Source: Bacteroidota bacterium (lineage in GTDB: Bacteria; Bacteroidota; Bacteroidia; B-17B0; Aurantibacillaceae). Taken from it: DNA of 50,950 nucleotides. Position 1 is the first letter of the stretch. Each line of letters starts with the position of its first letter. Under the pieces are notes generated by a model that saw only the letters and a list, made by a program, of their open reading frames with translations, did not search any database and was not told the DNA's origin. Of the stretch, positions 1,477-24,686 are shown piece by piece. The stretch lies in NCBI GenBank assembly GCA_021323535.1, contig JAJONO010000057.1:1-50950 (forward strand), read 5' to 3'. A program made the position numbers and the translations under genes.

Positions 1477-3576
1477 CTACAACCTCGCTCCAAAGATCAA
1501 CACATCGTCTGTCTGCTCCAGCTTACCTTTCCAGTCATTGAACACGCCCGATAATTTTTCTTTTTGCTCTGTTATCGAAAGTTGTTTATTTGAAACCAAT
1601 AACTGAACCAGATTTTTACGTTTAAACTTCTTACCATGCGCGCCGCCAAACTGGTCGGGCATTCCATCGGTAAACATGTAAATGCAATCTCCGCTTTCGT
1701 AATTAACTTCAACTCCTGTAAATGGCAATCCTCTTCCCCTGAAATAACCAACAGGGCGTCGGTCGCCTTTGATTTCTTCGAACGTTTTGTCATCCGCAGA
1801 AACTTTATCGGAGGCGGATCTCGCAACGATCAGCGAATTATTGGCTCCTGCAAATTCAATTTTCTTTTTCGATTCGTCAATACAGATAATGCCAATGTCC
1901 ATTCCATCACGGGCTTCACCCTCGGCCCCGGTTTGTTTTAATGATTTAATGACAAGGTGGCGCAGCTCGCTAAGAATTTCCTGAGGTTGTGAAATGCCCC
2001 TTTCGTTAATGATCTCATTCAGGAAAGCGCTTCCCGCAATACTTAAAAATGCTCCCGGAACGCCGTGCCCGGTGCAATCTGCAACCGCGATTATTTTCTT
2101 CCCGGCCTTCTCTCCGAACCAGTAAAAATCTCCCGACAAAATATCTTTTGGTTCGTATAGAACGAAAAATTCATTCAGTAATTTATTTGTACCGCCAAGG
2201 TCAGGTAAAAAAGTATCCTGTATTCTTTTCGCGTAAAAAATACTATCCGTAATATCCTTATTCTTATTGGTAATGATGTTGTTTTTTTCTTCAACTTCTT
2301 TTGTGCGGACTTTCAGTAGTCTCAGTGTCTTCTTGCTTTTATTGTAACTTCTGAACACCAGTACAAGAGCGCCGCAGATAATTATAATGCCAATGATGCC
2401 AATAATAATGAGATAGTTTTTTTGTTTAAGTTCTGTTTCCTTCAGAAGGCTCTTATTGTTCAGGCTTTTAATTTCATTTTCTTTTCTGTCGTATTCGTAC
2501 TCGGCTTGTAAACGGCGAAGACTTTCATTGTTATTCTGACTGCTCACTGAATCTTTGATATGCGACATTAACTCAAAGGCTTCAAGCGCCTCAGCTATTT
2601 TATTTTGGGCCTTTAATGCTTTCACATAAATATCAAGTGTTGCTGAAACGTCGTGTAAAGAACCTGTTACCTTGGCAATGTCAATGGAAAGACGCGCATT
2701 GGCCTCACTCTTCTTATAATCTTTAACAAGAAAATAGTATTGAGCATAACCCTGGTACAACCACATTAAATCTGATTTTTTTCCACTTATACCAATGAGC
2801 TTGTCCATTTGCTGAACCGCTTCAAAACATTTTGTAGCCTCTTCTCTTAAATAGTAGATCTGCGACAAGCCTTTATAAATATCAATTCCTTTTACTGGTT
2901 CGGCTTCAATGTTTATTGTATCGAGGGCTGAATGAAAACAGTTTTCGGCTTTATCCAGGTAATTAGCATAGAGATAAATTTCTCCCATCATAGTAATGGC
3001 CTGACCGTAACCATCAGCGAATTTATTTTTAGTGCAGATGTCCACCGCTTTTTCGGCGTATCTTATAGTTGAGGCTGTATCGTTGATCTGAAGATACTGA
3101 ACAGCGATATTAAGATTGGAAGTCACAGAACCGCGAATATCTCCGTGCGCCTCTTTGTACCTGGCCGCAAGTGACATGTATTTGATCGACGTTTTCCAGT
3201 TCCCCTGGTGCGAATAAGAAGCGCCAATGGAATTATAAATTTGTCCGATACGTTGATGATCGTTCAGTTTTGTAGCAAGTTTAAGAGCGGTATCAAGATA
3301 GTTGAGTGAGGCAGGAATATTTCCCGATTCCTGTTCAATAACGCCAAGCACATGAAGTGAGCGAAGCAATGTTCTTTCATGACCAAGTTGTCTTGCATCA
3401 AAATAACATTGACGCGAAAGTTCAATGGCCGAATCAATATTTCGATAATGCATTGGCCAAACCGTTTCCAGTTTTTTTATAATAGTAGTTGAATCGGGCC
3501 CGGCGCCAATTAAAGAAAAAGTAAAAAGGAATGCTGCTGCAAAGAGCAGGATTTTCCGGGGGTTATAAAATGTCAC
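1477..3576 (-). CDS. TPR-repeat membrane protein with SpoIIE-type PP2C phosphatase domain
   Basis: 699 residues. Order of parts: signal peptide (residues 1-25), six or so TPR motifs (about 60-340), a coiled-coil approach, one membrane helix at about 388-409 (LIIIGIIGIIIICGALVLVF), a second coiled coil (412-445), and a C-terminal PP2C/SpoIIE domain from about 450. Metal-site motifs are visible: VADCTGHGVPG (498-508), DGMD (557-560), FTDGMPDQFGG (from 635) and the terminal TDDVLIF. The layout predicts an external TPR sensor controlling an internal Ser/Thr phosphatase, as in partner-switching pathways. This architecture is common in Bacteroidota. No anti-sigma or kinase partner is adjacent. Confidence 0.9.
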   Translation of the reverse strand: MTFYNPRKILLFAAAFLFTFSLIGAGPDSTTIIKKLETVWPMHYRNIDSAIELSRQCYFDARQLGHERTLLRSLHVLGVIEQESGNIPASLNYLDTALKLATKLNDHQRIGQIYNSIGASYSHQGNWKTSIKYMSLAARYKEAHGDIRGSVTSNLNIAVQYLQINDTASTIRYAEKAVDICTKNKFADGYGQAITMMGEIYLYANYLDKAENCFHSALDTINIEAEPVKGIDIYKGLSQIYYLREEATKCFEAVQQMDKLIGISGKKSDLMWLYQGYAQYYFLVKDYKKSEANARLSIDIAKVTGSLHDVSATLDIYVKALKAQNKIAEALEAFELMSHIKDSVSSQNNNESLRRLQAEYEYDRKENEIKSLNNKSLLKETELKQKNYLIIIGIIGIIIICGALVLVFRSYNKSKKTLRLLKVRTKEVEEKNNIITNKNKDITDSIFYAKRIQDTFLPDLGGTNKLLNEFFVLYEPKDILSGDFYWFGEKAGKKIIAVADCTGHGVPGAFLSIAGSAFLNEIINERGISQPQEILSELRHLVIKSLKQTGAEGEARDGMDIGIICIDESKKKIEFAGANNSLIVARSASDKVSADDKTFEEIKGDRRPVGYFRGRGLPFTGVEVNYESGDCIYMFTDGMPDQFGGAHGKKFKRKNLVQLLVSNKQLSITEQKEKLSGVFNDWKGKLEQTDDVLIFGARL

Positions 3577-3599
3577 AGAATCAGTTCAAATACTATTAA

Positions 3600-6266: not shown

Positions 6267-6458
6267 CAGGTTTTATTTAAGTACCTAAAATATAAAAAAT
6301 AAGTTATAAATCAAAGAGTTAGGGTAGAAGGAGAGGCGTATTAAGACTGGCATGATTTTGTAAATAAACAATTGGCTGTTCAAATCAATTTGTCTCACAT
6401 TCTCAAACAGGATTTTGCTTTTATAGTTTTACTACAAGTTTTTTAAAATATTTCTGAT

Positions 6459-7811
6459 ATGTCTGTTAAACCGAAAAAGACAAGTATCACTGACAAAAAG
6501 ATTTTTGTATTAGATACCTCTGTAATCATCTACGACCACACGGCAATTAAAAATTTTGCTGAGCACGATGTGGTGATCCCGATAACTGTACTTGAAGAAC
6601 TTGATAACTTTAAGAAAGGAAATGACACTAAGAATTTTTCGGCTCGGGAGTTTACAAGATATGTCGATGCCCTCAGCGGCAAAAATACTCTGCAGGAATG
6701 GACCTCTATCAATGGTCCTACACGTGGCAAGTTCAAGATCGAAATGCATACTTCAAGCACCGTAAATGCCGAGAAGGTTTTCGATGAGAGAAAAGCCGAT
6801 CACCGCATCCTTAACACGGCCTTATTCGTAGCTGAGAATAATCCTGGAAGAAAAGTTATTCTTGTTACGAAAGACATTAATCTTCGTATTAAAGCAAAGA
6901 GCCTTAGCCTGCAGGCCGAAGATTATGAAACAGGTAAGATCAAAACTGTTGATGAATTATACAGTGGAATTACTGAAGTTCAGAAAGTAGATAACAGTAA
7001 CATTACCGCGATCTATAACCAGGGACAATGTAAAGCCGCCTCCGTTCTTAAAAAATCGAAGTCGCTGCCAAATCATTATTACATCCTTAAGAATGGTTCG
7101 CAAAGCGTGCTTTCGCGTTATAATGCCGAAGATGATACCATGCGCCGCGTTATTAAAACTGCAGCTTTCGGAGTAATTCCTAAGAACGCGGAACAGGCTT
7201 TCGCGCTTGAAGCTATCATGAACCCGGATATTAAACTGGTGTCGATACAAGGTGTTGCCGGTACCGGAAAAACATTACTATCATTGGCAGGCGCTTTGGA
7301 GTTAAGAAGAAATTATCACCAGATTTATCTTGCACGTCCTATTGTTCCATTGAGCAATAAAGACATTGGGTATCTTCCGGGTGATGTAAACAGCAAGTTG
7401 AATCCATATATGGAGCCGCTGTGGGATAATCTTAAATACATCCGCAGTTTGTTCAGCGAAAAGGATAAGGAACATAAACAGCTCAACGAAATGGTGGAGT
7501 CGCAAAAACTTGTGGTTTGTCCGCTCGCCTATATTCGTGGCCGTAGTTTAAGTAATGTGTTTTTTATTGTGGATGAAGCGCAGAATTTAACGCCACACGA
7601 AGTAAAAACAATTATTACACGCGCCGGAGAAAATACCAAGATCATTTTCACTGGTGATATTCACCAGATCGATACTCCTTATTTAGATGCTCAAAGTAAC
7701 GGTTTGAGTTATTTAATTGAGAAAGTAAAAGGACAGCCACTCTATGCTCACATAACACTTGAAAAAGGTGAACGTAGCGAACTCGCAAATCTTGCAAACG
7801 ACTTGTTATAG
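6459..7811 (+). CDS. phoH: PhoH-family ATPase with N-terminal PIN domain (PhoH2-like)
   Basis: 450 residues. The N-terminal PIN domain (about 12-165) has FVLDTSVII with the acidic site residue Asp19 and LEELDNFKKG. The PhoH ATPase domain (about 235-450) has Walker A GVAGTGKT (265-272), Walker B VFFIVDEAQ (367-375), and sensor FTGDIHQID (397-405). This PIN-PhoH fusion is the PhoH2/YlaK type, described as an RNA helicase coupled to a ribonuclease. All expected catalytic words are present and the length is normal. A strong terminator follows within 30 bases, so it is probably transcribed alone. Confidence 0.93.
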   Translation: MSVKPKKTSITDKKIFVLDTSVIIYDHTAIKNFAEHDVVIPITVLEELDNFKKGNDTKNFSAREFTRYVDALSGKNTLQEWTSINGPTRGKFKIEMHTSSTVNAEKVFDERKADHRILNTALFVAENNPGRKVILVTKDINLRIKAKSLSLQAEDYETGKIKTVDELYSGITEVQKVDNSNITAIYNQGQCKAASVLKKSKSLPNHYYILKNGSQSVLSRYNAEDDTMRRVIKTAAFGVIPKNAEQAFALEAIMNPDIKLVSIQGVAGTGKTLLSLAGALELRRNYHQIYLARPIVPLSNKDIGYLPGDVNSKLNPYMEPLWDNLKYIRSLFSEKDKEHKQLNEMVESQKLVVCPLAYIRGRSLSNVFFIVDEAQNLTPHEVKTIITRAGENTKIIFTGDIHQIDTPYLDAQSNGLSYLIEKVKGQPLYAHITLEKGERSELANLANDLL

Positions 7812-7837
7812 TTAGTTCTAAAATGGTTCCAAAAACG

Positions 7838-7868
7838 AAAGAAGCCGGTTGCTGTGACCGGCTTCTTT
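7838..7868 (+). terminator. Rho-independent terminator after the PhoH gene
   Basis: A perfect 12-bp stem, AAAGAAGCCGGT (7838-7849) with ACCGGCTTCTTT (7857-7868), closes a 7-base loop 26 bases after the phoH stop codon. The T-rich end of the stem gives the required U tract. It could also act for the convergent gene ending at 7993, but the repeats lie in between. Confidence 0.85.
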
Positions 7869-7877
7869 ATTAACTTG

Positions 7878-7971
7878 CGACTCCTCTGGAGTCGGAATCG
7901 AAAGATGACTCCGTAGGAGTCACACACGTGTAGACAATTATAACATAGGAGATTCGACCCCAGCGGGGTCG
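7878..7971. repeat. three 17-bp triloop palindromes
   Basis: Three separate palindromes share one design: 7-bp arms around a 3-base loop. They are CGACTCC-TCT-GGAGTCG (7878-7894), TGACTCC-GTA-GGAGTCA (7906-7922) and CGACCCC-AGC-GGGGTCG (7955-7971). The loops differ while the stems keep pairing, which points to selection or copying for hairpin form. They lie between two convergent genes. Short palindromes like these resemble REP-type elements. Confidence 0.7.
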
Positions 7972-7992
7972 CACCAATAATGAAATCAAAAA

Positions 7993-8691
7993 TTATTTTT
8001 TCGAATTTAAAACCGTGTATCCCTGCAATTTTTCTTTGTTGCTGTAGATCTCGCTTTTAACCATACCAATGTCTTTGCTATACCATTCGGCGCATTTTGA
8101 ACGAATGGTGAACAACATTTTGGTTTCCACATCATAAGTTATCTTCACACATTTGAATGTTCCTGCGGGAACTGTTACATCTTCTATCGCTGCAACTTTA
8201 CGATTACTGATGCCAATAGTAAGATTAAGCCCTATTGGATTATCTTCTGTTTTGGAAGACATTTTTAAAGAGCCGTCTTTGAGTGTTTGTCCCACCTGGG
8301 GATTTGCAGGAATATCGAGTTTATCAGCTGTAATAGTAACTTTAGTATCCTTAAAACTTTTACGTTGTTCTTCTGTGATCATGGATTGCATATCTACAGT
8401 AAATCCTCCGTTTTCACAGGTAAGAACATAAGTTGAAGTGCCAGCTGATTTTTCTTTTTTGTCAAAAGCCTCTGCCTGCATTTCTATTTCCTGTTTAGTG
8501 GCAGATTTGCGAATAGCAACAACTTTTGTCCGGTTCATGCCCGTAAATTTATTATCGTCGTTATAACTTTTGTATTCCATTTCGCTGCCTTCTTTTGAAG
8601 GAATGTATAATACACAATCGTCAGCGGGTAAAAACGCGCTGAAAGAAATAACAATGGCAATTAAGATTACCGGTTTAAAAAGTATTTTCAT
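7993..8691 (-). CDS. exported protein, DUF3108/TapB-like
   Basis: The start at 8691 gives 232 residues beginning MKILFKPVILIAIVIS, a clear signal peptide; the frame stays open to 8820, but those extra 43 residues would place a non-signal sequence ahead of it. The mature protein is beta-rich and ends with TVPAGTFKCVKITYDV and AEWYSKDIGMVKSE, a C-terminal pattern shared by DUF3108 and TapB-like Bacteroidota proteins (periplasmic or surface beta barrels of unknown role). One Cys pair (CVLYIP near the N-terminus, CENGG) may be structural. It is transcribed alone, towards the phoH terminator. Confidence 0.7.
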   Translation of the reverse strand: MKILFKPVILIAIVISFSAFLPADDCVLYIPSKEGSEMEYKSYNDDNKFTGMNRTKVVAIRKSATKQEIEMQAEAFDKKEKSAGTSTYVLTCENGGFTVDMQSMITEEQRKSFKDTKVTITADKLDIPANPQVGQTLKDGSLKMSSKTEDNPIGLNLTIGISNRKVAAIEDVTVPAGTFKCVKITYDVETKMLFTIRSKCAEWYSKDIGMVKSEIYSNKEKLQGYTVLNSKK

Positions 8692-8837
8692 GGGATTTGT
8701 TTTAGTAGAAGCGAATATATTATTTAATCTGAAATTGGAAAAGAAGATAAGCGCGGAAAATTTTCCCCGGACACATTTCACAATCTCTAAAGTCCCGAAG
8801 GGCCTTAACACTATTAACACGTAGAATCTAAAGCGCT

Positions 8838-14180: not shown

Positions 14181-15083
14181 GTGCTGAAAAGGATTTTATA
14201 CATAGTTATTCTATTCGTTTCCCTGGACGCGCTTTGTCAGACCCAAACATTTAAGGATGGAAAAAAATGGGGCATTAAGGAAAATGAAAAAACCCTTATT
14301 GCCCCTTTTTATGATACCATTTTTAACTTTGATGCAGCAGGGAAAGTTTGTCTCGCCTGCCACAAAGCCAAACCTGTAAACAATAACAGGTTCATAAAAC
14401 TAACAGGCCCAACTTATAACTGTAACTATCTCAATAAAAAAGGCGAACGCTTAATTATTACGAACGCGATCGGCGACACCGCCAGTGTTTTCGCATTAGG
14501 AAAAAACGCAGTAAAGCAATACCAGGAAGATCCGAAATACATTATTGCCGGAATCAAAGACAAAAAGTATTTAACGGACAAAAATTTCAAACAAATTACC
14601 GCGAAGGATTACACCGAAATTTATTTTACCGATCATCCTGAGTTTATCATGGCTGAAATTAAAACCGAAGGCAATATGATTTTAAAGGGGCTTCTTGATC
14701 TCAATGAAAAAGAGATCATTCCCTTCCTTTACTCCAACATTAAAATCCTTCCCGATTCAATTATTGTTGCCTGCAGCGCCGGAGTGGGAGTTAACCGCGA
14801 AGACGATATTTACAATTACGCGGGAAAGAAACTCGACAGCTATAGAAGGCACATTGATTTAGTGACAAAGGATTATGTGATCCACAAAATTTTTGAACCT
14901 AAAGAATATTATATCATCTACAACACCAAAACCAAAGAAGAAAAAATGGTATATGCCGAGCAGGCGCAGCTTTATGAAGGAGAAGAACTGCTGATGGCAA
15001 ACGACGACCATTGGTTCACATATAATATGGCCACGGGTAAAAAGAAATCTTACGATCACAAACACAAAAAGGAGAACAAATGA
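14181..15083 (+). CDS. exported WG-repeat-like protein with a CxxCH motif
   Basis: 300 residues from a GTG start chosen because it directly begins the signal peptide (MLKRILYIVILFVSLDALC). The mature part opens with KKWGIKENEKTLIAPFYD, the typical WG-repeat phrase, and has weaker copies later (KGLLDLNEKEIIPFLYSNI). Residues near 57 read VCLACHKAKP, so one CxxCH is present; whether it binds haem is uncertain because no c-type fold is evident. The stop overlaps the start of the GAPDH gene by four bases (ATGA), suggesting translational coupling. The C-terminus is very basic (KKKSYDHKHKKENK). The function of WG-repeat proteins is not established. Confidence 0.72.
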   Translation: MLKRILYIVILFVSLDALCQTQTFKDGKKWGIKENEKTLIAPFYDTIFNFDAAGKVCLACHKAKPVNNNRFIKLTGPTYNCNYLNKKGERLIITNAIGDTASVFALGKNAVKQYQEDPKYIIAGIKDKKYLTDKNFKQITAKDYTEIYFTDHPEFIMAEIKTEGNMILKGLLDLNEKEIIPFLYSNIKILPDSIIVACSAGVGVNREDDIYNYAGKKLDSYRRHIDLVTKDYVIHKIFEPKEYYIIYNTKTKEEKMVYAEQAQLYEGEELLMANDDHWFTYNMATGKKKSYDHKHKKENK

Positions 15084-16075
15084 ACAAGATCAGAGTAGCC
15101 ATCAATGGCTTCGGAAGGATAGGGAGAGTTTTTTTCAGGAACGCAATCAACAATCCAAACATAGACATTGTAGCAATCAACGACATTGCCGACATTAATA
15201 CACTCGCACACTTATTAAAATACGATTCGATACACCGTGCATACCCGGGGAAAGTAGAAACGCAGGGGAATAATTTAGTGGTAGATGGAAAAAGCATTAA
15301 GGTAGTTTCGGCAAAGGACCCTTCGCAATTGCCATGGAAAGAAAACAACATTGACATTGTTATTGAAAGTACAGGATTATTTCTTGATACCGAAAGCGCA
15401 AAAAAACATTTAGCGGCAGGCGCGAAGAAAATTATTTTATCGGCTCCTGCAAAAGAAGACTCCGTAAAAACAATTGTGTTAGGCGTTAACGATCATCTTC
15501 TCACGAAAGAAGACGTTATTATTTCCAATGCAAGTTGCACAACCAATTGCGCGGCACCCATGTTAAAAGTCCTGGAGCCATTTGGAATAGAAGAAGCTTA
15601 TATTACTACTGTTCACTCTTATACGAATGATCAACGTATTCACGATGCGCCGCATAAAGATTTAAGAAGGGCAAGAGCAGCGGCCATGAGTATTATTCCA
15701 ACATCAACAGGCGCGGCGAAAGCAATTACAAAAATATTTCCGAACCTCGAAGGAAAAATAGGCGGATGCGGTATGCGTGTGCCGGTGGCAGATGGTTCGT
15801 TAACAGATATAACTTGTGTGCTTACAAAAATTCCTACTGTTGAACAGATCAATGCTGCATATAAGGAAGCCTCGCAAACTCATCTTAAAGGAATTCTTCA
15901 ATACACCGAAGATCCTATTGTAAGTGTAGATGTTATTGGGAATCCTTACAGCGCATTATTTGACGCTGAATTCACTAGTGTAGTTGGTAACCTTGTAAAA
16001 GTTATTGGCTGGTACGATAACGAGTGGGGGTACAGCAACAGGCTGGTGGATCTTACCGTGAAGATTGGGAAATAA
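15080..16075 (+). CDS. gap: glyceraldehyde-3-phosphate dehydrogenase
   Basis: 331 residues, the normal length. It carries out the NAD-dependent oxidation and phosphorylation of glyceraldehyde 3-phosphate in glycolysis. The Rossmann motif INGFGRIG is at 8-15. Asp35 in AINDIAD suggests NAD preference. The active-site block SNASCTTNCAAP places the catalytic Cys at 153. The C-terminus WYDNEWGYSNR is intact. A Shine-Dalgarno-like AGGAGA lies seven bases before the ATG, inside the upstream WG-repeat gene, with which it overlaps by four bases. Bacteroidota often carry several gap copies; the rest of the genome cannot be seen. Confidence 0.97.
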   Translation: MNKIRVAINGFGRIGRVFFRNAINNPNIDIVAINDIADINTLAHLLKYDSIHRAYPGKVETQGNNLVVDGKSIKVVSAKDPSQLPWKENNIDIVIESTGLFLDTESAKKHLAAGAKKIILSAPAKEDSVKTIVLGVNDHLLTKEDVIISNASCTTNCAAPMLKVLEPFGIEEAYITTVHSYTNDQRIHDAPHKDLRRARAAAMSIIPTSTGAAKAITKIFPNLEGKIGGCGMRVPVADGSLTDITCVLTKIPTVEQINAAYKEASQTHLKGILQYTEDPIVSVDVIGNPYSALFDAEFTSVVGNLVKVIGWYDNEWGYSNRLVDLTVKIGK

Positions 16076-16105
16076 ACCTTTTCTTAATCTAAGGAGATAT
16101 CGAAA

Positions 16106-17107
16106 ATGAAAAAAGTTCTTCCATTACTCCTTTTGTTTTCCTGCTCCTCCCCGGAGGAAATAAAAGTCAATAAACCTATTTCTGATACCCTTTTAGTCAA
16201 AACAGAAATTCCAGTTTCTGATTCCATTGATCAAATACCAAGGAAGAAATTTGACGTTGAAAAATTTACGCATCAGGTAGATTCTTTACTCAAATTAATT
16301 GAAGGAAAGAGAACGATGCTTCAAGTCAGCTCCCATACTGTACAAACAGGAAAAGATTTGCCGCACTTTAAAGCAACGTCAACTAATACTATTGTAATTC
16401 ATTCGTTTAAAGCCGGCGCTCACTGGGCACTTAACTTCAGGATCATTGAGGCAACATTCAATGACAAAAACAAACTGGAAGAAGCATTTAGTTCTTTATG
16501 GAACGATGCAATGGATCTTAGAAAGGGCGATGAAAAATTTTCACCGGGACTTTCTTATACTAACGACTACGTTATTAAAACTGATGAAGCTATTTTCTGG
16601 TTAAATCTATCCTGTGCCTATGCCGGAAAGAATGGCGCTAAGATTGAAAAACTTTGGCGAAGTTCACTTTCGCTGGGAAAAATCACAGACTCCATTGTTT
16701 GCAGTTGCGGCCAATCGTGGTGCAACGAAAAGAACAGTCCTGTTATTCCAAACAATTTACATGAATGTTCATCGTATTTTGATCGTAACCTGAGTGAGTC
16801 TCTCAAAGACTCAATTAAAGCAACTCCTGAGAATTTGCTTACGGGCCGTTATCATAAATCACTCGGCATGTTCATACGTAATAACTGGATTCGCGATAGC
16901 AGAAGTCCGCAACTCGTTAAATTCTTTCAAGACCGCGGTGTCACAAATCCGGATGACATTTCGTTTCTTATCATCAAAAGATATTGGTGCAATTTAAACA
17001 GCAAGTATTTTGACGAGGAAGCAGAGATAAAAAAATACCAGGATCTTTTGAAAGGAAAATCAAATACGAAGGAAGTTACGGATAGTGTATTAACGCTTCC
17101 TCATTGA
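16106..17107 (+). CDS. hypothetical lipoprotein
   Basis: 333 residues with a lipoprotein signal MKKVLPLLLLFSCSS; Cys13 would be lipidated. The mature protein is alpha/beta with SCGQSWCNEKNSP near residue 203, where the Cys residues could pair or bind metal. I recognise no family. A textbook Shine-Dalgarno AAGGAG at 16091-16096, ten bases before the ATG, is unusual, because Bacteroidota mRNAs mostly lack it. It starts 30 bases behind the GAPDH gene and may be read through from it. Confidence 0.65.
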   Translation: MKKVLPLLLLFSCSSPEEIKVNKPISDTLLVKTEIPVSDSIDQIPRKKFDVEKFTHQVDSLLKLIEGKRTMLQVSSHTVQTGKDLPHFKATSTNTIVIHSFKAGAHWALNFRIIEATFNDKNKLEEAFSSLWNDAMDLRKGDEKFSPGLSYTNDYVIKTDEAIFWLNLSCAYAGKNGAKIEKLWRSSLSLGKITDSIVCSCGQSWCNEKNSPVIPNNLHECSSYFDRNLSESLKDSIKATPENLLTGRYHKSLGMFIRNNWIRDSRSPQLVKFFQDRGVTNPDDISFLIIKRYWCNLNSKYFDEEAEIKKYQDLLKGKSNTKEVTDSVLTLPH

Positions 17108-17143
17108 GGGCTGGAAGGTTTTACAGTAAGGGTTGAAAATTCC

Positions 17144-17215
17144 TTAAATTACATTGCAAAGCAGGATCACCAATAAAACAAAGATCGATCCTAAAAGTGC
17201 GGCACCATTACTCAT
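17144..17215 (-). CDS. possible 23-residue membrane peptide
   Basis: On the reverse strand an ATG at 17215 opens a 23-codon frame, MSNGAALLGS then IFVLLVILLCNVI and TAA at 17144-17146. It is a short polar start followed by a run of hydrophobic residues long enough to cross a membrane. It lies alone in the 255-bp gap between two lipoprotein genes. There is a purine-rich stretch upstream but no clear ribosome site. It could be chance in AT-rich DNA; nothing else marks it as a gene. Confidence 0.3.
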   Translation of the reverse strand: MSNGAALLGSIFVLLVILLCNVI

Positions 17216-17362
17216 AACTAATTTTTTTCTTCAAATTTCTTTATTCGATGCTTCTGTATCCATGAAAATGGAGGACCTGAACCTACATATGTAAGATTTT
17301 TGGATGTTTTGGAAAGATCTGCTACAATGTTCGTGGGATTTTTTAATTTTGATTAGCGACCG

Positions 17363-17764
17363 ATGAGATATTTGATTTTAAATTCTGCTATCCTGTTAAT
17401 GCTGAGTGCCTGTGGGCGAAGGACAAATGCATCTCTTCAAGGCAGCGAATGGACCAGCAATTTCTATCATTACCAGAATAAATATTATTTCCTGACCGAA
17501 TCGACAGGGTTTTCAAAGGACGGACAATTTCTGTGGAGCACTTTAATTGATCCGGCTTTATACAATAATTCGCGGGACAGTATTGATTATAGCGATCCGG
17601 TTAATTTTACATACACGCTTAAAGACACCGTACTCACGATTGAGTACACAAACGGCGTTCAGGAGAAACGGGTATTTTACAAAGCCGGAGATAGTTTATT
17701 TATTTCGGAATACGAATACGCTTATGGAAAGGAAGGGATTGAGATGACGGGGAGGATAAAATAG
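17363..17764 (+). CDS. hypothetical small lipoprotein
   Basis: 133 residues with a clear lipobox: MRYLILNSAILLMLSACGRR, lipidated at Cys17. The mature part looks like a small beta protein (FTYTLKDTVLTIEYTNG, RVFYKAGDSLFI), similar in shape to lipocalin-like or DUF-type surface proteins that test for a small molecule or hold a structure. I do not recognise the family. It ends 61 bases before the GyrB-like operon on the same strand. The last residues (EGIEMTGRIK) look natural, not truncated. Confidence 0.6.
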   Translation: MRYLILNSAILLMLSACGRRTNASLQGSEWTSNFYHYQNKYYFLTESTGFSKDGQFLWSTLIDPALYNNSRDSIDYSDPVNFTYTLKDTVLTIEYTNGVQEKRVFYKAGDSLFISEYEYAYGKEGIEMTGRIK

Positions 17765-17787
17765 CAGCAAAAATCATACAAGTTTCA

Positions 17788-17818
17788 TTGATAATCTTTT
17801 CCCTTTTCCGTATCTTAC
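17788..17818 (+). promoter_or_regulatory. possible promoter of the GyrB-like operon
   Basis: TTG at 17788-17790 and TATCTTAC at 17811-17818 are 20 bases apart, eight bases before the ATG at 17826. The -7 element has two mismatches to TAnnTTTG, so this is a weak call. The same core TATCTTA occurs in the candidate promoter at 43331. If right, the operon has its own short-leader transcript separate from the lipoprotein gene. Confidence 0.35.
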
Positions 17819-17825
17819 AAATACA

Positions 17826-18878
17826 ATGAGCAACCCCTACAGCGAAGAAAATCTTCCCAAAATTTTTAACTGGCATGAAGCCATACGTAAACGTCCCGGT
17901 ATGTATGTGGGCGATTTGCGCATTACCGGCTTTAAGGTAATGCTCGAATATTTGTTTGAAGAACTCCTGGAAAACAGTTTGCAAAAACCTGTTTTTGAAA
18001 TAGAGCTTTGGCCAAACATACAACTGCGGTTTAAAATAACCGGAATTGATGTAAACACTATTATTGAACGTATACGTGATTTAAAAAACTCAGAGCCCCG
18101 TGCAACCGATCTTGGCTTGCGTGTTTTAATAAGCCTGGCGCAGCATATTGCAATAAGGGCTCACAACATTCCCACCTGTAGTGTGTTAAATGCCAGGGAG
18201 GGCAATTGCGAAATTACAGAGCTAAGCTCGCTCGAAAAAGAAAATTGCGCGTACATAGATTACCTCTGCGATAAAACCATTTTTAAAGATCTCGAAGTTT
18301 CTTACCACACCCTTAACCAATACTTCGGGGAGTTTACTTACCTCAATCCTGATCTTAAAATTATTTTTACAGATAAAAGCACTGAAGATCTGCAAAGAAA
18401 CATTCATCATGCGCCAACTGGCATTTTTAAAAAGATGGAGCGTTATTTTCACCGGCCGTTCAGGGTAAATATTGAGGGTGTCATAAATAATTATGCATAC
18501 CAGGTGGCTATCTGTAATCACTCTTATTACTGCGGAGGTTCCTTTTTTAAAACCTACGCCGGCAATCTTGAAATGACGAATGGCGGCTCCCTTGAAAATG
18601 GCATTGCCAAAGGAATTGCAATTGCCATAGAAAAACTGGCTGAAGAAAGAAAAATAAAAGTTGTAGTAAATAAACACCTTATTCTAAAACATTTCACTGT
18701 GCTGGCGGTTGTAAAAGGAAACGATTTTGAATTTTTAGGTTCCACCAAAACAAAGCTGGGGGTCGACGCCATCCGTAAAGATGTAATGCAGCTGGTGTGT
18801 GATAAAATGATGTCGGAACTAAAACTGGCGGAAAAAGAAGCTAACTATATTCTGTATGATTTCGAAATTCAAGAATAA
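17826..18878 (+). CDS. GyrB-like ATPase/transducer protein lacking the TOPRIM domain
   Basis: 350 residues, about half the length of GyrB or ParE. The start carries HEAIRKRPGMYVGD, the hallmark of the type II topoisomerase GHKL domain. The N-box EELLENS keeps Glu and Asn at the spacing of the catalytic Glu and Mg-binding Asn in GyrB. The next motif DGRGIP is not present (KITGIDVNT instead), and the Gly-rich lid is reduced to ATDLGLRVLISLA. The second half matches the transducer domain, with MTNGGSLENG and FLGSTKTKLG (compare GQTKTKLG in GyrB). The protein stops there: no TOPRIM EGDSA or DxD. It therefore cannot be a complete gyrase subunit. It heads a three-gene operon. Confidence 0.75.
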   Translation: MSNPYSEENLPKIFNWHEAIRKRPGMYVGDLRITGFKVMLEYLFEELLENSLQKPVFEIELWPNIQLRFKITGIDVNTIIERIRDLKNSEPRATDLGLRVLISLAQHIAIRAHNIPTCSVLNAREGNCEITELSSLEKENCAYIDYLCDKTIFKDLEVSYHTLNQYFGEFTYLNPDLKIIFTDKSTEDLQRNIHHAPTGIFKKMERYFHRPFRVNIEGVINNYAYQVAICNHSYYCGGSFFKTYAGNLEMTNGGSLENGIAKGIAIAIEKLAEERKIKVVVNKHLILKHFTVLAVVKGNDFEFLGSTKTKLGVDAIRKDVMQLVCDKMMSELKLAEKEANYILYDFEIQE

Positions 18879-18883
18879 GAACA

Positions 18884-19273
18884 ATGACCCTCAAAGTAAA
18901 AATAGAAGCGCTGGACTATGAAGCCGAAATTGAGATAAAGAAAGACGGCGATCTTTACCGCCTCATTGTTATTAAATCAAAATCGGCTTACTACAAGCAC
19001 AATGGCAAAGCCTGGCATGGCCAAACTGCTGCTGATGCGCAAATAAAAGAAATTACCGGTTTGGTGGAGGAATGTTATGTTGCTCCAACAAAAACAAAAA
19101 TGATTTGTATTTTAGATTGTACGGTTGTAACATTTTTGTACGACAATGATAAAACGAAAATAAACTATTCTATTAAAGATTTTGAAGAGGGAGCAAAACA
19201 GGATATGTTAATGGCTAAACTATATGAGCTTTGTAATAAACTAACCGGCGAAATTATTTTTAAAAAATTTTAA
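18884..19273 (+). CDS. hypothetical protein, 129 aa, in the GyrB-like operon
   Basis: A small soluble alpha/beta protein with no signal or membrane segment. It starts five bases after the GyrB-like stop and ends six bases before the SUKH-domain gene, so it is tied to both. The N-terminal half is beta-like (LKVKIEALDYEAEIEI, DLYRLIVIKSKSAYY), followed by a Cys-containing core (MICILDCTVVTFLYDND) and a C-terminal helix. I do not recognise a family. It may be an adaptor or accessory subunit, judged only from its position. Confidence 0.6.
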   Translation: MTLKVKIEALDYEAEIEIKKDGDLYRLIVIKSKSAYYKHNGKAWHGQTAADAQIKEITGLVEECYVAPTKTKMICILDCTVVTFLYDNDKTKINYSIKDFEEGAKQDMLMAKLYELCNKLTGEIIFKKF

Positions 19274-19279
19274 AGACAA

Positions 19280-20263
19280 ATGAAATCGATAAGCAAAGTA
19301 ATTGAGAAATATAAGAAGCAAACCCTGAGCGATGCAGATGGAGACGCTGTAACCATGGAGCTTCAAAAGAAAAGCTCTAAAACCGTTATTGAAAAATTTG
19401 AAAAGCAATCCGGAGCTAAACTGCCATCTCAGTTAAAAGAGCTTTATTCATTATCGAATGGGGCAGATCTATTCGGAAGTGAAATTGTTCCCATAGAAGC
19501 AGTACTTTACGAGCCCGATTTTAATGCGTTTCAGTTTCATGGCTGGGGCAATGGCGATTTTGATTACATTATGAAGGATGGCCAAATTGCCTTTCTCGAT
19601 AACAGATCGCGCAAGCTCGTTCCTGTTGCTTCATCCCTGGGAGAGTGGGCTGAAAAAGTTATCCTTGAAATTAAAAAGAACGGATGCCTGAGCCACCCCG
19701 ATGATTTTTTAAATTATGAAGAAAAAGATGCATTGTATTACCCGGTGTATCTTAAAATAAAAACTCCGGCAGAAAGAAAGAAAGCCAAGGGAAAGAAAAA
19801 ACCAAAAGCAAAACCTGTTTCGGAGCCTGTTTCAAAGTCGGCGAATAAAGAGCTTAATGTGTGGCAAAAGGTTTATATTTTAGGTGTCGATAAAAACTTC
19901 CGTGCTTTTGAGGATCGTATTGCGGCAAAAAATGGCGCAAAGATAGCACGCAAATATTCAGATGCAGATTTACATGAGACAGGAAATTGTATTGCAACTT
20001 CGCTTTATTCTCTTGAAACCGTATGGAAGTTTTTACAGGATAACGAAAAACAAATTCATGCTTTTGATGATTCTGTTTGGGATGCAATAACGAATGAGGG
20101 CTGGAGTTTCCAGGAAGGATTTAGTTTGAGAACAGGAATTTATTTGTGTTATCTGAAAGACAAGAACTTTGACGCCCTTCGTAGTTATCTTCTTCTGTCA
20201 GATTCGCGCGATACAGACGATACTTTAACACAGATCAAAAAATTAAAGTTGAAATTGGTTTAG
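19280..20263 (+). CDS. SMI1/KNR4 (SUKH) domain protein with C-terminal extension
   Basis: 327 residues. Residues about 33-150 match the SMI1/KNR4 pattern: VIEKFEKQSGAKLPSQLKELYSLSNGADLFG, then IVPIEA, then a hydrophobic stretch ending LGEWAEKVI. A Lys/Pro-rich linker (about 172-190, KAKGKKKPKAKPV) joins a second domain (about 195-327) that I do not recognise. SUKH proteins are often immunity proteins of polymorphic toxins, and also occur as regulators. No toxin is adjacent. It is the third gene of a tight operon behind the GyrB-like protein (six-base spacing). Confidence 0.72.
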   Translation: MKSISKVIEKYKKQTLSDADGDAVTMELQKKSSKTVIEKFEKQSGAKLPSQLKELYSLSNGADLFGSEIVPIEAVLYEPDFNAFQFHGWGNGDFDYIMKDGQIAFLDNRSRKLVPVASSLGEWAEKVILEIKKNGCLSHPDDFLNYEEKDALYYPVYLKIKTPAERKKAKGKKKPKAKPVSEPVSKSANKELNVWQKVYILGVDKNFRAFEDRIAAKNGAKIARKYSDADLHETGNCIATSLYSLETVWKFLQDNEKQIHAFDDSVWDAITNEGWSFQEGFSLRTGIYLCYLKDKNFDALRSYLLLSDSRDTDDTLTQIKKLKLKLV

Positions 20264-20320
20264 GGGACTTAAACTACGTTGCCCGGACTATTAATTATCG
20301 TCTAACGACTATCAACTAAA

Positions 20321-20596
20321 TTACCCCACCGCCGTCGCATCGCCTTCAATTAAATCTTCTTCGTTATCGGTGTTACGTGTTGTTAAACGATACGAATATT
20401 CAATGTCAATGTAAAGAAAATCAAATTCTTCTTCTACTTTTCCAATAAGACGATAACAGCCCGGCCCGGTAAACGGAAAAGCCCGCGCCGATGGTGGGAA
20501 ATGTACCGTGTCTATCCAGTAACCTTCTATATCCAGAAAAGTTCCAAAGTACATGCGCTCGCCTTTGCTGGTTTGCGTGTTTTTGGTGGTTACCAA
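20321..20596 (-). CDS. OB-fold C-terminal piece of the frameshifted DnaE
   Basis: This frame encodes the DnaE C-terminal OB fold: GERMYFGTFLDIEGYWIDT, VHFPPSARAFPFTGPGCY, FLYIDIEYSYRL. Coding in this frame continues upstream past the Met at 20596 as YIGKTVEIIGQLV, back to the A5 run at 20631-20635, where it joins the main dnaE frame if one A is added. It is therefore not a separate gene but the last 100 or so residues of the polymerase, put out of frame by one base. Confidence 0.75.
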   Translation of the reverse strand: MVTTKNTQTSKGERMYFGTFLDIEGYWIDTVHFPPSARAFPFTGPGCYRLIGKVEEEFDFLYIDIEYSYRLTTRNTDNEEDLIEGDATAVG

Positions 20597-20610
20597 CTGG
20601 CCAATGATCT

Positions 20611-23319
20611 CTACCGTTTTACCAATGTAATTTTTATGTCTTCCTTCAATAGTTTAAATGGCGAACATAAAGGAAAATCAAGGAGCTCCACCTGGTCGAA
20701 CGCGTCATGCAACCACGATGTTTCCAGCTTCGGTAATTTATATTCCTGAGGCCTTACATCAAACAATTCTTTATTAAAAGGATTTTTTTTAATGGGATTA
20801 ACCATCATATGCGCGTCCCACAACAATTCTTTTTTGTTTTTTCCTGTAAAAGTAAATGCGCCAACGCGAATAAGAAGTCGTAATTGCTCCAATGAAACAG
20901 GAGCACGTTTTATAAAATCATATAGATCTTTAAACGCTCCGTTCTGGTTTCGTTCGTTAAGAAAAAGCGCCACGATGTTTTTTTCGAGGGAACGCACCAT
21001 GTTAAAGCCCAGATAAATTGTTTTGCCAATAATGCGGCACAGCTCCTGGCTGGTGTTTATACATGGAGGAACAATATCGGCGCCATGCATGCGCGCTTCG
21101 TGTACGTAAACTTCGGTGCGGTAAAATCCTCCGCCGTTATTGAGTGTTGCTACCATGTATTCGAGAGGATGATAGGTTTTAAGATACAAGGCCTGGTAAC
21201 TTTCCACAGCATAACTTGCCGAGTGACCCTTGGAGAAAGCAAAGTTGGCAAAGCTTTCTATCTGGGTCCATGTTTTTTCAATGATGTCGTGCGGATGACC
21301 TTTAATGTAACAGTTATTAAAAAACTTATCCTGTACGAGATGAAATTCACTTCGCTGCTTGAATTTCCAACTCATACCACGACGAAGATAATCTGCTTCT
21401 GCCAGCGTGAGATCGGCAAATATATGCGCGATCTTGATCACATCTTCCTGGTAAACCATTACGCCATAGGTTTCTTCGAGCAGGTCGTATAACTCAGGCA
21501 ATTCTTCACGGGCCTGTTCGCGTTTCTCTTTGTTGCGGTAACGTAAAATATATTCGCGCATCATTCCGCTTTTTGAAACACCGGGACGAATAATAGAACT
21601 TGCCGCTACTAATCTCAGGTAATCATCGGCCTGTAATTTTGCAAGCAGCATTCGCATGGCCGGAGATTCAATATAAAAACAACCAATGCATTTTCCTACA
21701 CGGAGATTTTTCTTTACTTCTTCATCTTCATAAAAACGTTTTACATCATGAATGTCTATTGTTTCATTTTTATTTTCTTTGATGATGGATAGCGCGTCTT
21801 TTATTTTTCCTAAACCACGCTGACTCAGAATATCAAATTTGAACAAGCCAATGTCTTCCGCTTCCAGCATGCTGAATTGCGTAGTCGGATATCCTTTAGG
21901 CGGCATAAACGTTGCCGAATAAGCGGTAATGGGTTCCTGCGAAATTAAAATTCCACTGGCGTGAATGCTCAGGTGGCTCGGAAAATCATGAATGAGGTTT
22001 CCGTATTTTATAACCAACTGACTTACATGATCGAGCTCTTTCATGCTTTTTGCTTTTTGCAGCCTGTCTATTTCGCCGGGTGGAAGTCCGAATACTTTCC
22101 CAAGTTCGCGCGTTACCGAATCTCTTTGAAATGTAGAATAAGTTGCAAGAAGCGCTACGGTTTGTTTTTCTTTTTTTGTTACTTCATCTTTTCCAAAACG
22201 ATCAAAAATATAGCGTGTCATATCATCGCGGTCGTTCCACGAAAAATCAATATCAAAATCGGGAGCGTTGGCACGATGAATGTTTATGAAACGTTCAAAA
22301 TAAAGATCGAGTTCAATGGGATCAACATCGGTAATGCGTAAAAGATAAGCAACAAGGCTGTTGGCCCCGCTACCCCGCCCAACGTAATAATAACCCTTAT
22401 GCCGCGCGTATTCTGTAATATCCCAGTTAATGAGGTAATACGAAGCAAATTGTTTTTGTGCAATAACGTCGAGTTCGGTTTCGAGACGATCCATTACTTT
22501 TTCAGGGCGATCTTTATATCTATAGTCCAGATTTGCCATGCATTTTTCTCTTAGAAAATCCAGGTCTTCCTGTAAACCGGATGTATAATACGTACGGTTT
22601 TTGTTGGCCAGTTTCCCATACGTAAAATTTACCGAGCAATCGTTGAGTATGTTTTCGGTGTTTTGAATGATCTGAGGATGTGATGCAAAAGCTTCGTACA
22701 GTTTTTCTTTAGGGAGCATGACTTCGTCTTCGGTGGTTTGTTCCGATTCCGAAAGCATACTCAGCAAAACATTTTTATCGATGGCTCTTAACAGACGATG
22801 CGCATTGTAATGTTTTTTATTGGCGAAGGTGGCAGGTTGAAGCACCACCATTTTACGCGCCCAATGGCGCGCCGGTGAAAAAGGAATGTTTCTTAATTCT
22901 TTGGCGGAGATGCCTATGTATTCATTTTCTTTAAGGATGCGCCCCTGGTATTTGCTGAAAGGGAAAATAACATAGGCATGATTAAATTCAGGAAGTTCTT
23001 TTTCGTTGAAATCTGTTTTTGTATGAAGATGCTGTGTGAGATGTTCGTTCAGTTCTTTGTAACCTTCGTTATTTCTTGCAATACCAACATATTGTTGTGA
23101 TACGCCATTGCGGAAATCGATACCAGGAATTACTTTTAACGGACAGGGATTTTCGACTGGCGGAGAACACAGGCGAATGGCATCAAGAATAGCGGATGTG
23201 TTATTGATATCGGAAATAACCAGCTGCTGATATCCGTTCTTTTGTGTTTGGTCAAAAAGCTCTTTGATGGAAAGTGTTCCGTAACAAAAACTAAAATATG
23301 TGTGGCAATTGAGGAGCAT
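20611..23319 (-). CDS. dnaE: DNA polymerase III alpha-like (second DnaE), truncated by frameshift
   Basis: 902 residues as read. The polymerase active site is intact: GRGSGANSLVAYLL, PDFDIDF (353-359) and FDIL with Asp496. The N-terminal PHP domain is decayed: HxH is NCH near residue 6 and TDHGN is SDINN, so the proofreading metal site is unlikely. The frame ends ...EDIKITLVKR; restoring one A at 20631-20635 gives EDIKNYIGKTVEI and adds the OB fold, for about 999 residues in total. It lies next to DNA polymerase IV, as in inducible mutagenesis (ImuB-DnaE2-like) gene pairs, and is shorter than a replicative DnaE of about 1,150 residues. Confidence 0.88.
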   Translation of the reverse strand: MLLNCHTYFSFCYGTLSIKELFDQTQKNGYQQLVISDINNTSAILDAIRLCSPPVENPCPLKVIPGIDFRNGVSQQYVGIARNNEGYKELNEHLTQHLHTKTDFNEKELPEFNHAYVIFPFSKYQGRILKENEYIGISAKELRNIPFSPARHWARKMVVLQPATFANKKHYNAHRLLRAIDKNVLLSMLSESEQTTEDEVMLPKEKLYEAFASHPQIIQNTENILNDCSVNFTYGKLANKNRTYYTSGLQEDLDFLREKCMANLDYRYKDRPEKVMDRLETELDVIAQKQFASYYLINWDITEYARHKGYYYVGRGSGANSLVAYLLRITDVDPIELDLYFERFINIHRANAPDFDIDFSWNDRDDMTRYIFDRFGKDEVTKKEKQTVALLATYSTFQRDSVTRELGKVFGLPPGEIDRLQKAKSMKELDHVSQLVIKYGNLIHDFPSHLSIHASGILISQEPITAYSATFMPPKGYPTTQFSMLEAEDIGLFKFDILSQRGLGKIKDALSIIKENKNETIDIHDVKRFYEDEEVKKNLRVGKCIGCFYIESPAMRMLLAKLQADDYLRLVAASSIIRPGVSKSGMMREYILRYRNKEKREQAREELPELYDLLEETYGVMVYQEDVIKIAHIFADLTLAEADYLRRGMSWKFKQRSEFHLVQDKFFNNCYIKGHPHDIIEKTWTQIESFANFAFSKGHSASYAVESYQALYLKTYHPLEYMVATLNNGGGFYRTEVYVHEARMHGADIVPPCINTSQELCRIIGKTIYLGFNMVRSLEKNIVALFLNERNQNGAFKDLYDFIKRAPVSLEQLRLLIRVGAFTFTGKNKKELLWDAHMMVNPIKKNPFNKELFDVRPQEYKLPKLETSWLHDAFDQVELLDFPLCSPFKLLKEDIKITLVKR

Positions 23320-23346
23320 TTGTTTTTTTAAAGTCGAACTACTGAC

Positions 23347-23430
23347 CTGTCAGGCTGAGAATAGTCGAAGCTTTCTTTATTTTTAAAATCATTTCTTTCG
23401 AGCCGCCCTTCGACTGCGCTCAGGGTGACA
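23347..23430. repeat. dispersed palindromic element (CTTCGACTGCGCTCAGGGTGAC type)
   Basis: Two imperfect inverted arms, TGTCAGGCTGAGAATAGTCG near 23347-23366 and CCTTCGACTGCGCTCAGGGT from 23407 (continuing GACA), lie between dnaE and dinB. The same sequence family appears at 27802-27850, 39306-39330 and 49060-49119. It is a short non-coding repeat, well known by sight in Bacteroidota intergenic DNA. It could act as a transcription end between the two polymerase genes. Confidence 0.65.
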
Positions 23431-23480
23431 TCGAAAGAAGATTACCTGTCCAAATGCGTCACACTATCGCAGTTGAAGCG

Positions 23481-24686
23481 CTACGCCACAAATACAGGTT
23501 TCTTACTCTTAATACCATTAAACAAGCTCGTATCTCTTTTATTAAGATCAAGGCCCGCCGCGCGCATTACCGCCGCTTCCCCGAAACGGTTACGGAGCTT
23601 ATCCATAGCCTGGTAAAGCTGAATTTGTTCGCTCATGTCGTTAAATAAATCGAACTGGTAAGTGCCCTGTATGAGGTGACTGAATTTCACACCAATCAAA
23701 CGAATAAGCATGCGTTTCTGATGAAGTTTATCAAATAATTCTTTTACTTTTTCAATGAGCATAGAATCCAATGCCGTGTACGGAACGCGCATTTGCATAG
23801 TGTAGGTATTAAAATCGGAGTAACGGATCTTTACCGTAACACAGGAAGTTAATTTTTCCTCTTCACGCAACTGGTACGTTAGTTTTTCTGTCATGCTTAC
23901 CATTACGCGTTTTAAATGCGCAACATCAATGGTGTCCTTCTCAAATGTACATTCGGTAGAAATGGATTTACGTTCGTTATAAGGTTCCACAGGCGAGTTA
24001 TCAATGCCATTTGCTTTCTTCCATAACACGGCTCCGTTTTCGCCAAGCACCTGTTGCATTAACTGCATGGGCATTTCCTGAACGGTTTTTACTTTTTCAA
24101 TTCCCATGTTGCGAAGCAGTTGATAGGTTTTTTCGCCAACCATCGGAATTTTTTTAATAGATAAGGGCGCCAGAAAAATTTTCTCATCACCAAAATCAAT
24201 TTTTCTTTGCCCGCTTGGTTTTACTTCTCCTGTACAAATTTTAGAAACTGTTTTGTTGCTCGATAATCCAAACGAAATAGGTAATCCTGTTTCGTGAATA
24301 ATTCTTTGCCGCAATTCTCCGGCCAGTTTGTAGCAACCAAAAAAACGATCCATGCCGGTAAGATCCATGTAAAACTCATCGATGGATGGCTTCTCGTAAA
24401 CCGGAACACTCTCTTTGATAATATCGGTTACGGTGTTAGAGAAATTGGTGTACTGATCGTGATCCCCTTTTACAACAATGGCTTCAGGACATAATTGTTT
24501 TGCCGTTCGCATGGGCATGGCTGAGTGCACGCCAAACTTACGCGCTTCGTAACTGCATGAGGCAACAACGCCGCGATCGCTGGTGCCGCCAACAAGTACA
24601 GGCTTTCCGTTTAATTTGGGATTGAGCATGCGCTCCACCGACACAAAAAAACTGTCGAGGTCCATATGTACTACGTTTCTTTCCAT
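23481..24686 (-). CDS. dinB: DNA polymerase IV (Y family)
   Basis: 401 residues. A translesion polymerase. Catalytic residues are Asp9 in HMDLDSFF and Asp103/Glu104 in PSIDEFYMD; SYEARKFGV and the little-finger region are complete. A beta-clamp binding motif QFDLF is at 344-348, followed by about 50 more residues, so the full protein seems present. It is on the same strand as the truncated dnaE and upstream of it by 161 bases. The pair suggests a shared role in damage tolerance; no LexA box was recognised in the 108 bases upstream. Confidence 0.93.
   Translation of the reverse strand: MERNVVHMDLDSFFVSVERMLNPKLNGKPVLVGGTSDRGVVASCSYEARKFGVHSAMPMRTAKQLCPEAIVVKGDHDQYTNFSNTVTDIIKESVPVYEKPSIDEFYMDLTGMDRFFGCYKLAGELRQRIIHETGLPISFGLSSNKTVSKICTGEVKPSGQRKIDFGDEKIFLAPLSIKKIPMVGEKTYQLLRNMGIEKVKTVQEMPMQLMQQVLGENGAVLWKKANGIDNSPVEPYNERKSISTECTFEKDTIDVAHLKRVMVSMTEKLTYQLREEEKLTSCVTVKIRYSDFNTYTMQMRVPYTALDSMLIEKVKELFDKLHQKRMLIRLIGVKFSHLIQGTYQFDLFNDMSEQIQLYQAMDKLRNRFGEAAVMRAAGLDLNKRDTSLFNGIKSKKPVFVA

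Follow-up and report, generated by a model that had tools for sequence, protein, structure and literature searches.

The first gene of a tight three-gene cluster in a Bacteroidota genome encodes a protein, P1, that is almost certainly a pseudo-enzyme derived from GyrB, the B subunit of DNA gyrase. The cluster lies in a stretch of 50,950 nucleotides (assembly GCA_021323535.1, contig JAJONO010000057.1; family Aurantibacillaceae), which we call the window; it is contig 134 of a 5.3 Mb draft genome, and all positions below refer to the whole window. P1 (17826..18878, plus strand, 350 residues) has a predicted GHKL fold followed by a transducer domain, as judged from its open reading frame (ORF), Pfam, an AlphaFold2 (AF2) model and motif tests. 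With both the ATP-site motifs and the TOPRIM domain missing, P1 is excluded as a gyrase and probably has no ATPase activity. We propose, at a rough probability of 0.36, that P1 is a decoy or immunity protein that would bind, and protect against, toxins hitting the ATPase domain of GyrB/ParE. The two genes behind it encode an orphan protein (P2) and a protein with a SUKH-1 domain (P3).

GyrB-like fold and loss of the ATP-site motifs

A hidden Markov model search of P1 against GyrB models, proposed in a preliminary description of this DNA, returned GyrB-like matches. Pfam DNA_gyraseB matched residues 238-343 (E 2.5e-9, over the cut-off), while the best NCBIfam GyrB model (E 5.9e-23) scored 81 bits where 740 are required, so the curated GyrB/ParE cut-off was not reached. 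The motifs IRKRPGMYVG and transducer-type STKTKLG were present as first described. Alignment places RKRPGMYVG at residues 21-29 (17886..17912, plus strand), and the pattern R-x-R-P-x-M-[YF]-x-G is kept in all five full-length Bacteroidota members of the family. STKTKLG (residues 306-312; 18741..18761, plus strand) aligns as the counterpart of the GyrB QTK loop, with Gln replaced by Ser and Lys kept. The early end of the protein was also confirmed: the stop lies at the transducer boundary, and no TOPRIM match was found with Pfam, with NCBIfam or in the alignment.

The AF2 model of P1 was built from an alignment of 32 rows (P1, a partial second copy called L022, and 30 viral GyrBs) and had a mean predicted local distance difference test score (pLDDT) of 87.9 and a predicted template modelling score of 0.83. 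Its best match in the PDB was a GyrB ATPase region (Z 32.1, 338 residues, 2.9 A). GyrB/ParE ATPase regions were matched across the whole length of the model, at 13-18% identity wherever a structural alignment to GyrB/ParE was listed; the 50 best rows held only GyrB, ParE and topoisomerase II chains, a comparison that leaves room for other folds. The five-member family profile alone also matched GyrB structures (E 2.8e-30). Thus, of the structure predictions suggested at the outset, that of P1 alone gave the fold of the GyrB 43K fragment (GHKL plus transducer), while the model of P2 was unusable (pLDDT 36).

We assessed the ATP-site motifs without alignment in 16 TOPRIM-less proteins, 5 from Bacteroidota and 11 borne on Streptomyces/Kitasatospora plasmids. 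As controls we used those Bacteroidota and viral GyrB/ParE loci that had an ORF of at least 550 residues and the N-terminal motif (100 of 125; 25 were dropped). We observed that the strict N-box was absent from all 16 TOPRIM-less proteins and present in 94 of the 100 full-length controls, and that the strict lid motif was likewise found in 0/16 against 91/100. G1 was kept in 4/16 and G2 in the same 4/16, against 100/100 controls for each. The pattern [QG][SQ][TVS]K was missing in 12 of the 16, though present in P1, and was seen in 85/100 controls. A looser motif, GG[KR] within residues 61-160, occurred in 0/5 Bacteroidota proteins, 7/11 Streptomyces-type proteins and 91/100 controls.

In P1 itself the N-box, G1, lid and G2 motifs are all missing, both in a mixed alignment and in the alignment-free test, and in the aligned Bacteroidota members the entire G1-lid-G2 stretch is shorter. 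The DGRGIP motif and Gly-rich lid, first reported as degraded, are indeed gone. When the ATP-binding residues were lined up, only the outcome at the N-box depended on the alignment. EELLENS had been read as the N-box, and MAFFT with the viral GyrBs does set N50 on the catalytic Asn; other alignments set E46 there. The family profile and the mixed alignment run ungapped with E46 at the catalytic Asn, a position held by Glu or Asp in 5/5 Bacteroidota members, and in the predicted model the helix at this region ends at residue 48. EELLENS may only resemble an N-box, shifted from the true position. For E. coli GyrB, the residue numbering and the functions of Asn46, Gln335, Lys337 and Tyr5 are used here as background.

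Purifying selection on P1

The loss of a domain and of motifs could also mark a decaying relic of a gyrB gene. The second copy L022 (JAJNBG010000052.1, from a metagenome-assembled genome) bears on this point. It is partial, being cut by a contig end inside P1, and 88% identical to P1. Over 162 codons the nonsynonymous and synonymous divergences (dN and dS, own Nei-Gojobori script) were 0.058 and 0.458, giving a dN/dS of 0.127. P1 is under purifying selection. The five Bacteroidota genomes hold intact frames with one end point, and the adjoining P2 and P3 are unrelated to GyrB. The same genome has full-length GyrB/ParE-type genes on contigs C122 and C66 (open frames of 655 and 624 residues), which shows that P1 is no remnant of a gyrB next to it. 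The truncated piece of a nearby gyrB with a frameshifted TOPRIM part, which the preliminary description had considered, is ruled out by the dN/dS, the end point and the contig placement; a decaying relic of any kind is very improbable indeed.

The DNA match between P1 and L022 starts at 17786, 40 bases ahead of the start codon, with no match between the two genomes upstream of that point. The two copies thus share a leader of about 40 bases (17786..17825, plus strand) and have different surroundings. As the contig of L022 stops inside P1, and the remainder was not found in that assembly, it is uninformative on P2 and P3.

Relatives of P1 in Bacteroidota

Four other short-frame relatives were found: one in the same genus (genome G010, 32% identity by search) and three in the same class (G562, G642 and G723), obtained with a profile of P1, L005 and L022. 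Together with P1 they make five full-length members of 325-356 residues, all of which stop at the transducer end. In alignment P1 is 22-31% identical to the others.

The distribution of these genes is patchy. A search with P1 found short frames in its own and 1 of 59 further genomes, and the 16 other matching genomes had frames of at least 620 residues, which we took as full-length. One of 36 other genomes of the genus has a relative. The class sample gave P1 and 3 of 394 other genomes (E <= 1e-26), with four more matches having frames of 648-680 residues. Among the matches listed for 395 genomes of the phylum, the only short frame was that of P1 and all others were at least 544 residues long; this listing reaches E 1.2e-19, and distant short relatives could lie beyond it. 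The family of G723 gave 1/36 genomes and that of G562 1/10 (E <= 1e-40), in both cases the carriers themselves. P1 had no match in phage records, and no relative of P1, P2 or P3 was found in viral contigs among loci sharing a peptide pattern.

The neighbours also differ from genome to genome. The G010 gene has an HNH gene nearby, as well as a gene whose SWIM match is below threshold. In G562 the neighbours are small genes without names, a MORN gene and, about 4 kb away, an OmpA protein; in G723 they are a cupin gene and a TPR gene. In G642 unnamed genes adjoin, with PIN, GNAT, RDD and TIR genes elsewhere in the contig. The P1-family genes are thus patchy and without constant neighbours among the Bacteroidota loci, and P1 is probably an accessory single gene that has moved horizontally.

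Two of these loci contain repeats. In the G562 locus (L066, G562:C116, 1-14501) small same-strand unnamed genes surround the pseudo-GyrB gene, with intergenic repeats of 74-132 nt, one pair of which is 98% alike; this may be an array of the polyimmunity type. In the G642 locus (L067, G642:C16) repeats of about 185-255 nt (780-964, 4448-4702, 5150-5405 and 8647-8835) separate unrelated genes (PIN, GNAT, RDD, TIR and pseudo-GyrB), resembling a cassette array. Because repeats lie between genes in both loci, we considered integron cassettes. L067 has six GTTAGCNNNA sites against 0.9 expected, and GTTAGC motifs are enriched in it. An IntI model was over its cut-off in 0/6 carriers and matched below it in 6/6, as it did in 14/14 control genomes. 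The attC-type folding of four stretches was equivocal (z +0.35 to -2.7). Tyrosine-recombinase-like frames of 381-391 residues are present in three genomes (G000:C2:18813-19631, in L070 and L076; G755:C48; G010:C313); the integron integrase model matched them at both ends, not in the middle, and below cut-off.

TOPRIM-less proteins on Streptomyces and Kitasatospora plasmids

Stand-alone TOPRIM-less proteins of 383-396 residues were also found on Streptomyces and Kitasatospora linear plasmids, where they are annotated as 'DNA gyrase subunit B' or 'ATP-binding protein', or left unannotated. The plasmid search used the G723 protein first and then a Kitasatospora match as query, and 11 of the 14 top-ranked records (H23-H36) were analysed, leaving out H25, H31 and H33. 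The plasmid matches of P1 itself, H1 and H2 (642 and 625 residues), were rejected as kin, being full-length genes, and likewise H3, H13, H17 and H40. The catalytic Asn and the strict lid are lost in 11/11 plasmid proteins, and G1 and G2 are kept in 4/11. Some plasmid genes annotated as 'DNA gyrase subunit B' in Streptomyces are accordingly not gyrases, and their products are unlikely to be ATPases.

In a maximum-likelihood tree of 37 rows the plasmid proteins join a Streptomyces GyrB (support 100/97), and the five Bacteroidota proteins form a clade of their own (100/100). This topology suggests two independent origins of pseudo-GyrBs, by convergence. A single clade for both groups was not rejected by an approximately unbiased test (p 0.123), and the branches are long.

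The annotated neighbours of the plasmid genes mostly differ, apart from two pairs of loci. The first is L079 and L080, whose proteins are 97% identical and which have the same next gene. In L079 (NZ_CP108614.1, 482-1141 and 3944-5110) an SMI1/KNR4 gene, SUKH per Pfam, lies about 2.8 kb from the pseudo-GyrB gene. The second pair is two Streptomyces plasmids (L180, NZ_CP108701.1; L181, NZ_CP108189.1), where a 'Helicase associated domain protein' gene precedes the pseudo-GyrB gene within 5-6 kb of a plasmid end, a setting that is possibly telomere-linked. On the second of these, from Streptomyces zaomyceticus, a gene for a Fic-family toxin, accompanied by a small partner (3295-8077), lies about 3 kb from the pseudo-GyrB gene.

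Candidate functions of P1

The mechanism that we propose begins with descent of P1 from the N-terminal half of GyrB/ParE, the GHKL and transducer fold being kept. Lacking the ATP motifs and TOPRIM, P1 would be expected neither to cleave DNA nor to turn over ATP by the known mechanism. Its partner would be gyrase or topoisomerase IV itself, or a toxin attacking them; because the neighbours mostly change between genomes, such a partner should either occur in all hosts or come in from outside. As a decoy, P1 would stand in for GyrB/ParE by binding a GyrB-directed interbacterial toxin and keeping it occupied, and the SUKH gene P3 would be an immunity-type neighbour in what is likely the same transcription unit. 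According to PMC3482391, SUKH is one of two superfamilies (with SuFu) that dominate immunity in polymorphic toxin systems. A toxin with a suitable target is Cpe1: PMC12136450 describes how it cuts both GyrB and ParE, at LHAGGKF, and how competition for its substrate site neutralises it.

P1 and the four other Bacteroidota members have no GG[KR] in the region of the Cpe1 site. We considered whether the toxin-site GG is lost in all pseudo-GyrBs; this is true for 5/5 Bacteroidota proteins and untrue for 7/11 Streptomyces-type ones. Since those seven plasmid proteins keep GG[KR], an 'uncleavable decoy' fails as an account of the whole set, and the odds of a decoy are slightly lowered. A decoy for FicT was also considered. 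Tyr109 of E. coli GyrB, the residue modified by Fic toxins, belongs to a part of the protein that P1 lacks, and this idea therefore gains no support.

Several observations weigh against a decoy. The loss of the lid motif would be expected from decay of the ATP site alone; the Lys of the QTK loop is still present in P1; and one of the plasmid proteins with GG[KR] (S536) has it at the aligned position. The AF2 model is biased toward a GyrB-like fold, 30 of its 32 input rows being viral GyrBs. Neither a toxin gene nor tandem immunity genes adjoining P1-P3 were recognised by Pfam among the nine proteins of 14181-24686 (P1-P3 included), a scan that would miss any toxin without a Pfam model. The genome has eight SUKH-1 genes, so that one beside P1 could be there by chance, and P3 was found by tblastn in no other P1-family locus.

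The main rival, which we regard as unlikely, is that P1 is a dominant-negative or regulatory partner of the host gyrase or topoisomerase IV. P1 would pair with a GyrB or ParE protomer through its N-terminal arm and transducer, and the heterodimer would have one dead ATP site; supercoiling would be slowed or tuned, or the gyrase of an incoming element blocked. The N-terminus of P1 (PYSEENLPKIFNWHEAIRKRPGMYVG) is close to that of the cell's own ParE-type protein, arm tyrosine included, though the ATP motifs are lost. The plasmid proteins also speak for such pairing. Their arm residue is Tyr in 10/11 and Phe in 1/11, and the arm is their best-kept region (66% mean identity, against 46% in G1-lid-G2; the corresponding values for five full-length proteins are 59% and 58%). 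However, the arm tyrosine is missing from all but one of the five full-length Bacteroidota members, and N-gate closure in true GyrB requires ATP.

In a second rival, again unlikely and ranking below the first, P1 is a clamp or sensor without enzyme activity, serving a purpose of its own apart from gyrase and toxins, for example with another ligand or partner. This would fit the predicted fold being kept while the ATP motifs are gone, and the low identity to P1 within the family leaves room for a new function. Among the five Bacteroidota proteins the transducer (30% mean identity) and the N-terminal motif region (33%) are better conserved than what remains of the GHKL part (17-19%). No positive pointer to a specific partner was found.

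GyrB is an essential enzyme and a target of drugs and toxins, and a selected, apparently ATP-dead copy of its ATPase half that lacks the DNA-cleaving portion points to a binding role around gyrase. If P1 is a decoy, it would be a case of target-mimic immunity in bacteria; as a dominant-negative partner, P1 would instead represent a protein regulator of gyrase that occurs naturally. We also considered, as a rather doubtful extension, that P1 belongs to an unnamed class of TOPRIM-less, ATP-dead accessory GyrB pseudo-enzymes spanning at least two phyla, with the Bacteroidota ones acting as target-mimic decoys.

P2, P3 and the surroundings of P1

P2 (18884..19273, 129 residues) and P3 (19280..20263, 327 residues) follow P1 on the plus strand, and the ORF coordinates agree with the 5- and 6-base gaps first noted. 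Co-transcription of the three genes as one unit is likely, and they may have a joint role. P2 is an orphan with no confident family. Its Pfam match to Aha1_N (E 0.022) is below cut-off. Aha1 is an activator of the GHKL protein Hsp90, and a link of P2 to the GHKL-type P1 was considered on this ground; we rejected it, the match being within chance and the P2 model unusable. P3 has an SMI1/KNR4 (SUKH-1) domain at 19376..19654, plus strand, by Pfam (PF09346, E 1.6e-8, 35.7 bits against a gathering cut-off of 25.4) and a genome scan for SUKH-1, and a second domain for which no family name was found; both agree with the original reading of the gene.

A conserved P1-P2-P3 module for defence or conflict would be consistent with the tight same-strand spacing and with the SUKH domain of P3. 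We examined 28 loci by tblastn (E <= 0.01), which include the four loci of P1 relatives (9.5-14.5 kb each), L022, 11 loci of a DNA polymerase III alpha-type gene (here called dnaE2) and 11 plasmid loci. P2 was found in 0/28 and P3 in L058 only, and the gene order was not seen with any of the four other full-length P1 relatives. P2 had no relatives in 59 other genomes, in plasmids or in viral contigs (the viral search being limited to peptide-pattern loci). At E <= 1e-8, P3 had one distant relative, 25-26% identical, in 1 of 394 other genomes of the phylum (G081); its ORF has 290 residues and the match continues across a TAG. The 14 kb fetched around it held no GyrB-like gene, and a short ORF near it resembles a toxin C-terminus by eye and has no Pfam name. 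No SUKH gene was seen among the Pfam-scanned neighbours of the relatives in G010, G562, G642 and G723. None of P1, P2 and P3 matched a PADLOC model at E <= 1.

In the genus, dnaE2 is present in 34 of the 40 genomes searched (own included), and the dnaE2 loci of 11 other genus mates have nothing like P1-P3 within about 1.5 kb. Because P2 and P3 were not found with the P1 relatives, and the loci of genus mates hold nothing alike, the three genes are a local arrangement in a variable spot. The operon conserved across Bacteroidota that the preliminary description had envisaged fails by its own measure, P2 and P3 being missing from the loci of four relatives, and a conserved module is quite improbable.

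Upstream of P1 lie GAPDH, a DUF6794 protein gene and a small lipoprotein-like gene without a Pfam family. A type III secretion system effector model (HopW1-1) gave a chance-level match to the DUF6794 protein (E 0.15) and was discarded. Downstream of P3, and convergent with it, Pfam identified dnaE2 and a Y-family polymerase. The dnaE2 of the window (20321-23319, minus strand) encodes 902 residues, against 993-1034 in 10 of 11 fetched genus mates; in the eleventh the gene is also broken. A piece resembling the C-terminus of the polymerase lies in another frame at 20321-20596, indicating a frameshift or an assembly error. Repeats in the window are just short pairs, as chance would give.

Comparison with known systems

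The N-terminal 43-47 kDa fragment of GyrB/ParE resembles P1 in its predicted fold over the whole length, the RxRPxM motif, the transducer GG and the TK loop. P1 differs in having no TOPRIM domain and no N-box, G1, lid or G2, and in the replaced Gln of the QTK loop. A chain of similar kind in the PDB is 3cwv ('DNA gyrase, B subunit, truncated', Myxococcus xanthus), which has 369 residues, a TOPRIM-less length, and matches the P1 model with Z 29.4 over 323 residues. However, it comes from another phylum and is 18% identical, and the comparison covered chain length and fold. The Streptomyces/Kitasatospora plasmid proteins are, like P1, stand-alone and TOPRIM-less and have lost the catalytic Asn and strict lid; unlike P1, some keep GG[KR] or G1 and G2, and they fall apart from the Bacteroidota clade in the free tree.

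In the Cpe1-Cpi1 pair, as far as the part of PMC12136450 consulted goes, the GyrB/ParE ATPase domain is likewise the target of a delivered toxin and immunity works by competition for the substrate site; Cpi1 is not described there as GyrB-like, and no Cpe1-type gene was recognised beside P1. The Imm-SUKH polyimmunity loci (PMC3482391) share the SUKH-1 domain with P3, whereas the neighbours of P3 include no recognised toxin or tandem immunity genes; the first 300,000 characters of that paper mention neither GyrB nor gyrase nor GHKL. Our literature search found no paper on selected, ATP-ruined, TOPRIM-less GyrB halves as accessory genes in two phyla. The parts are of known kinds, and their combination is new to the literature searched; TOPRIM-less GyrB-like chains as such are already present in the PDB (3cwv) and in annotations.

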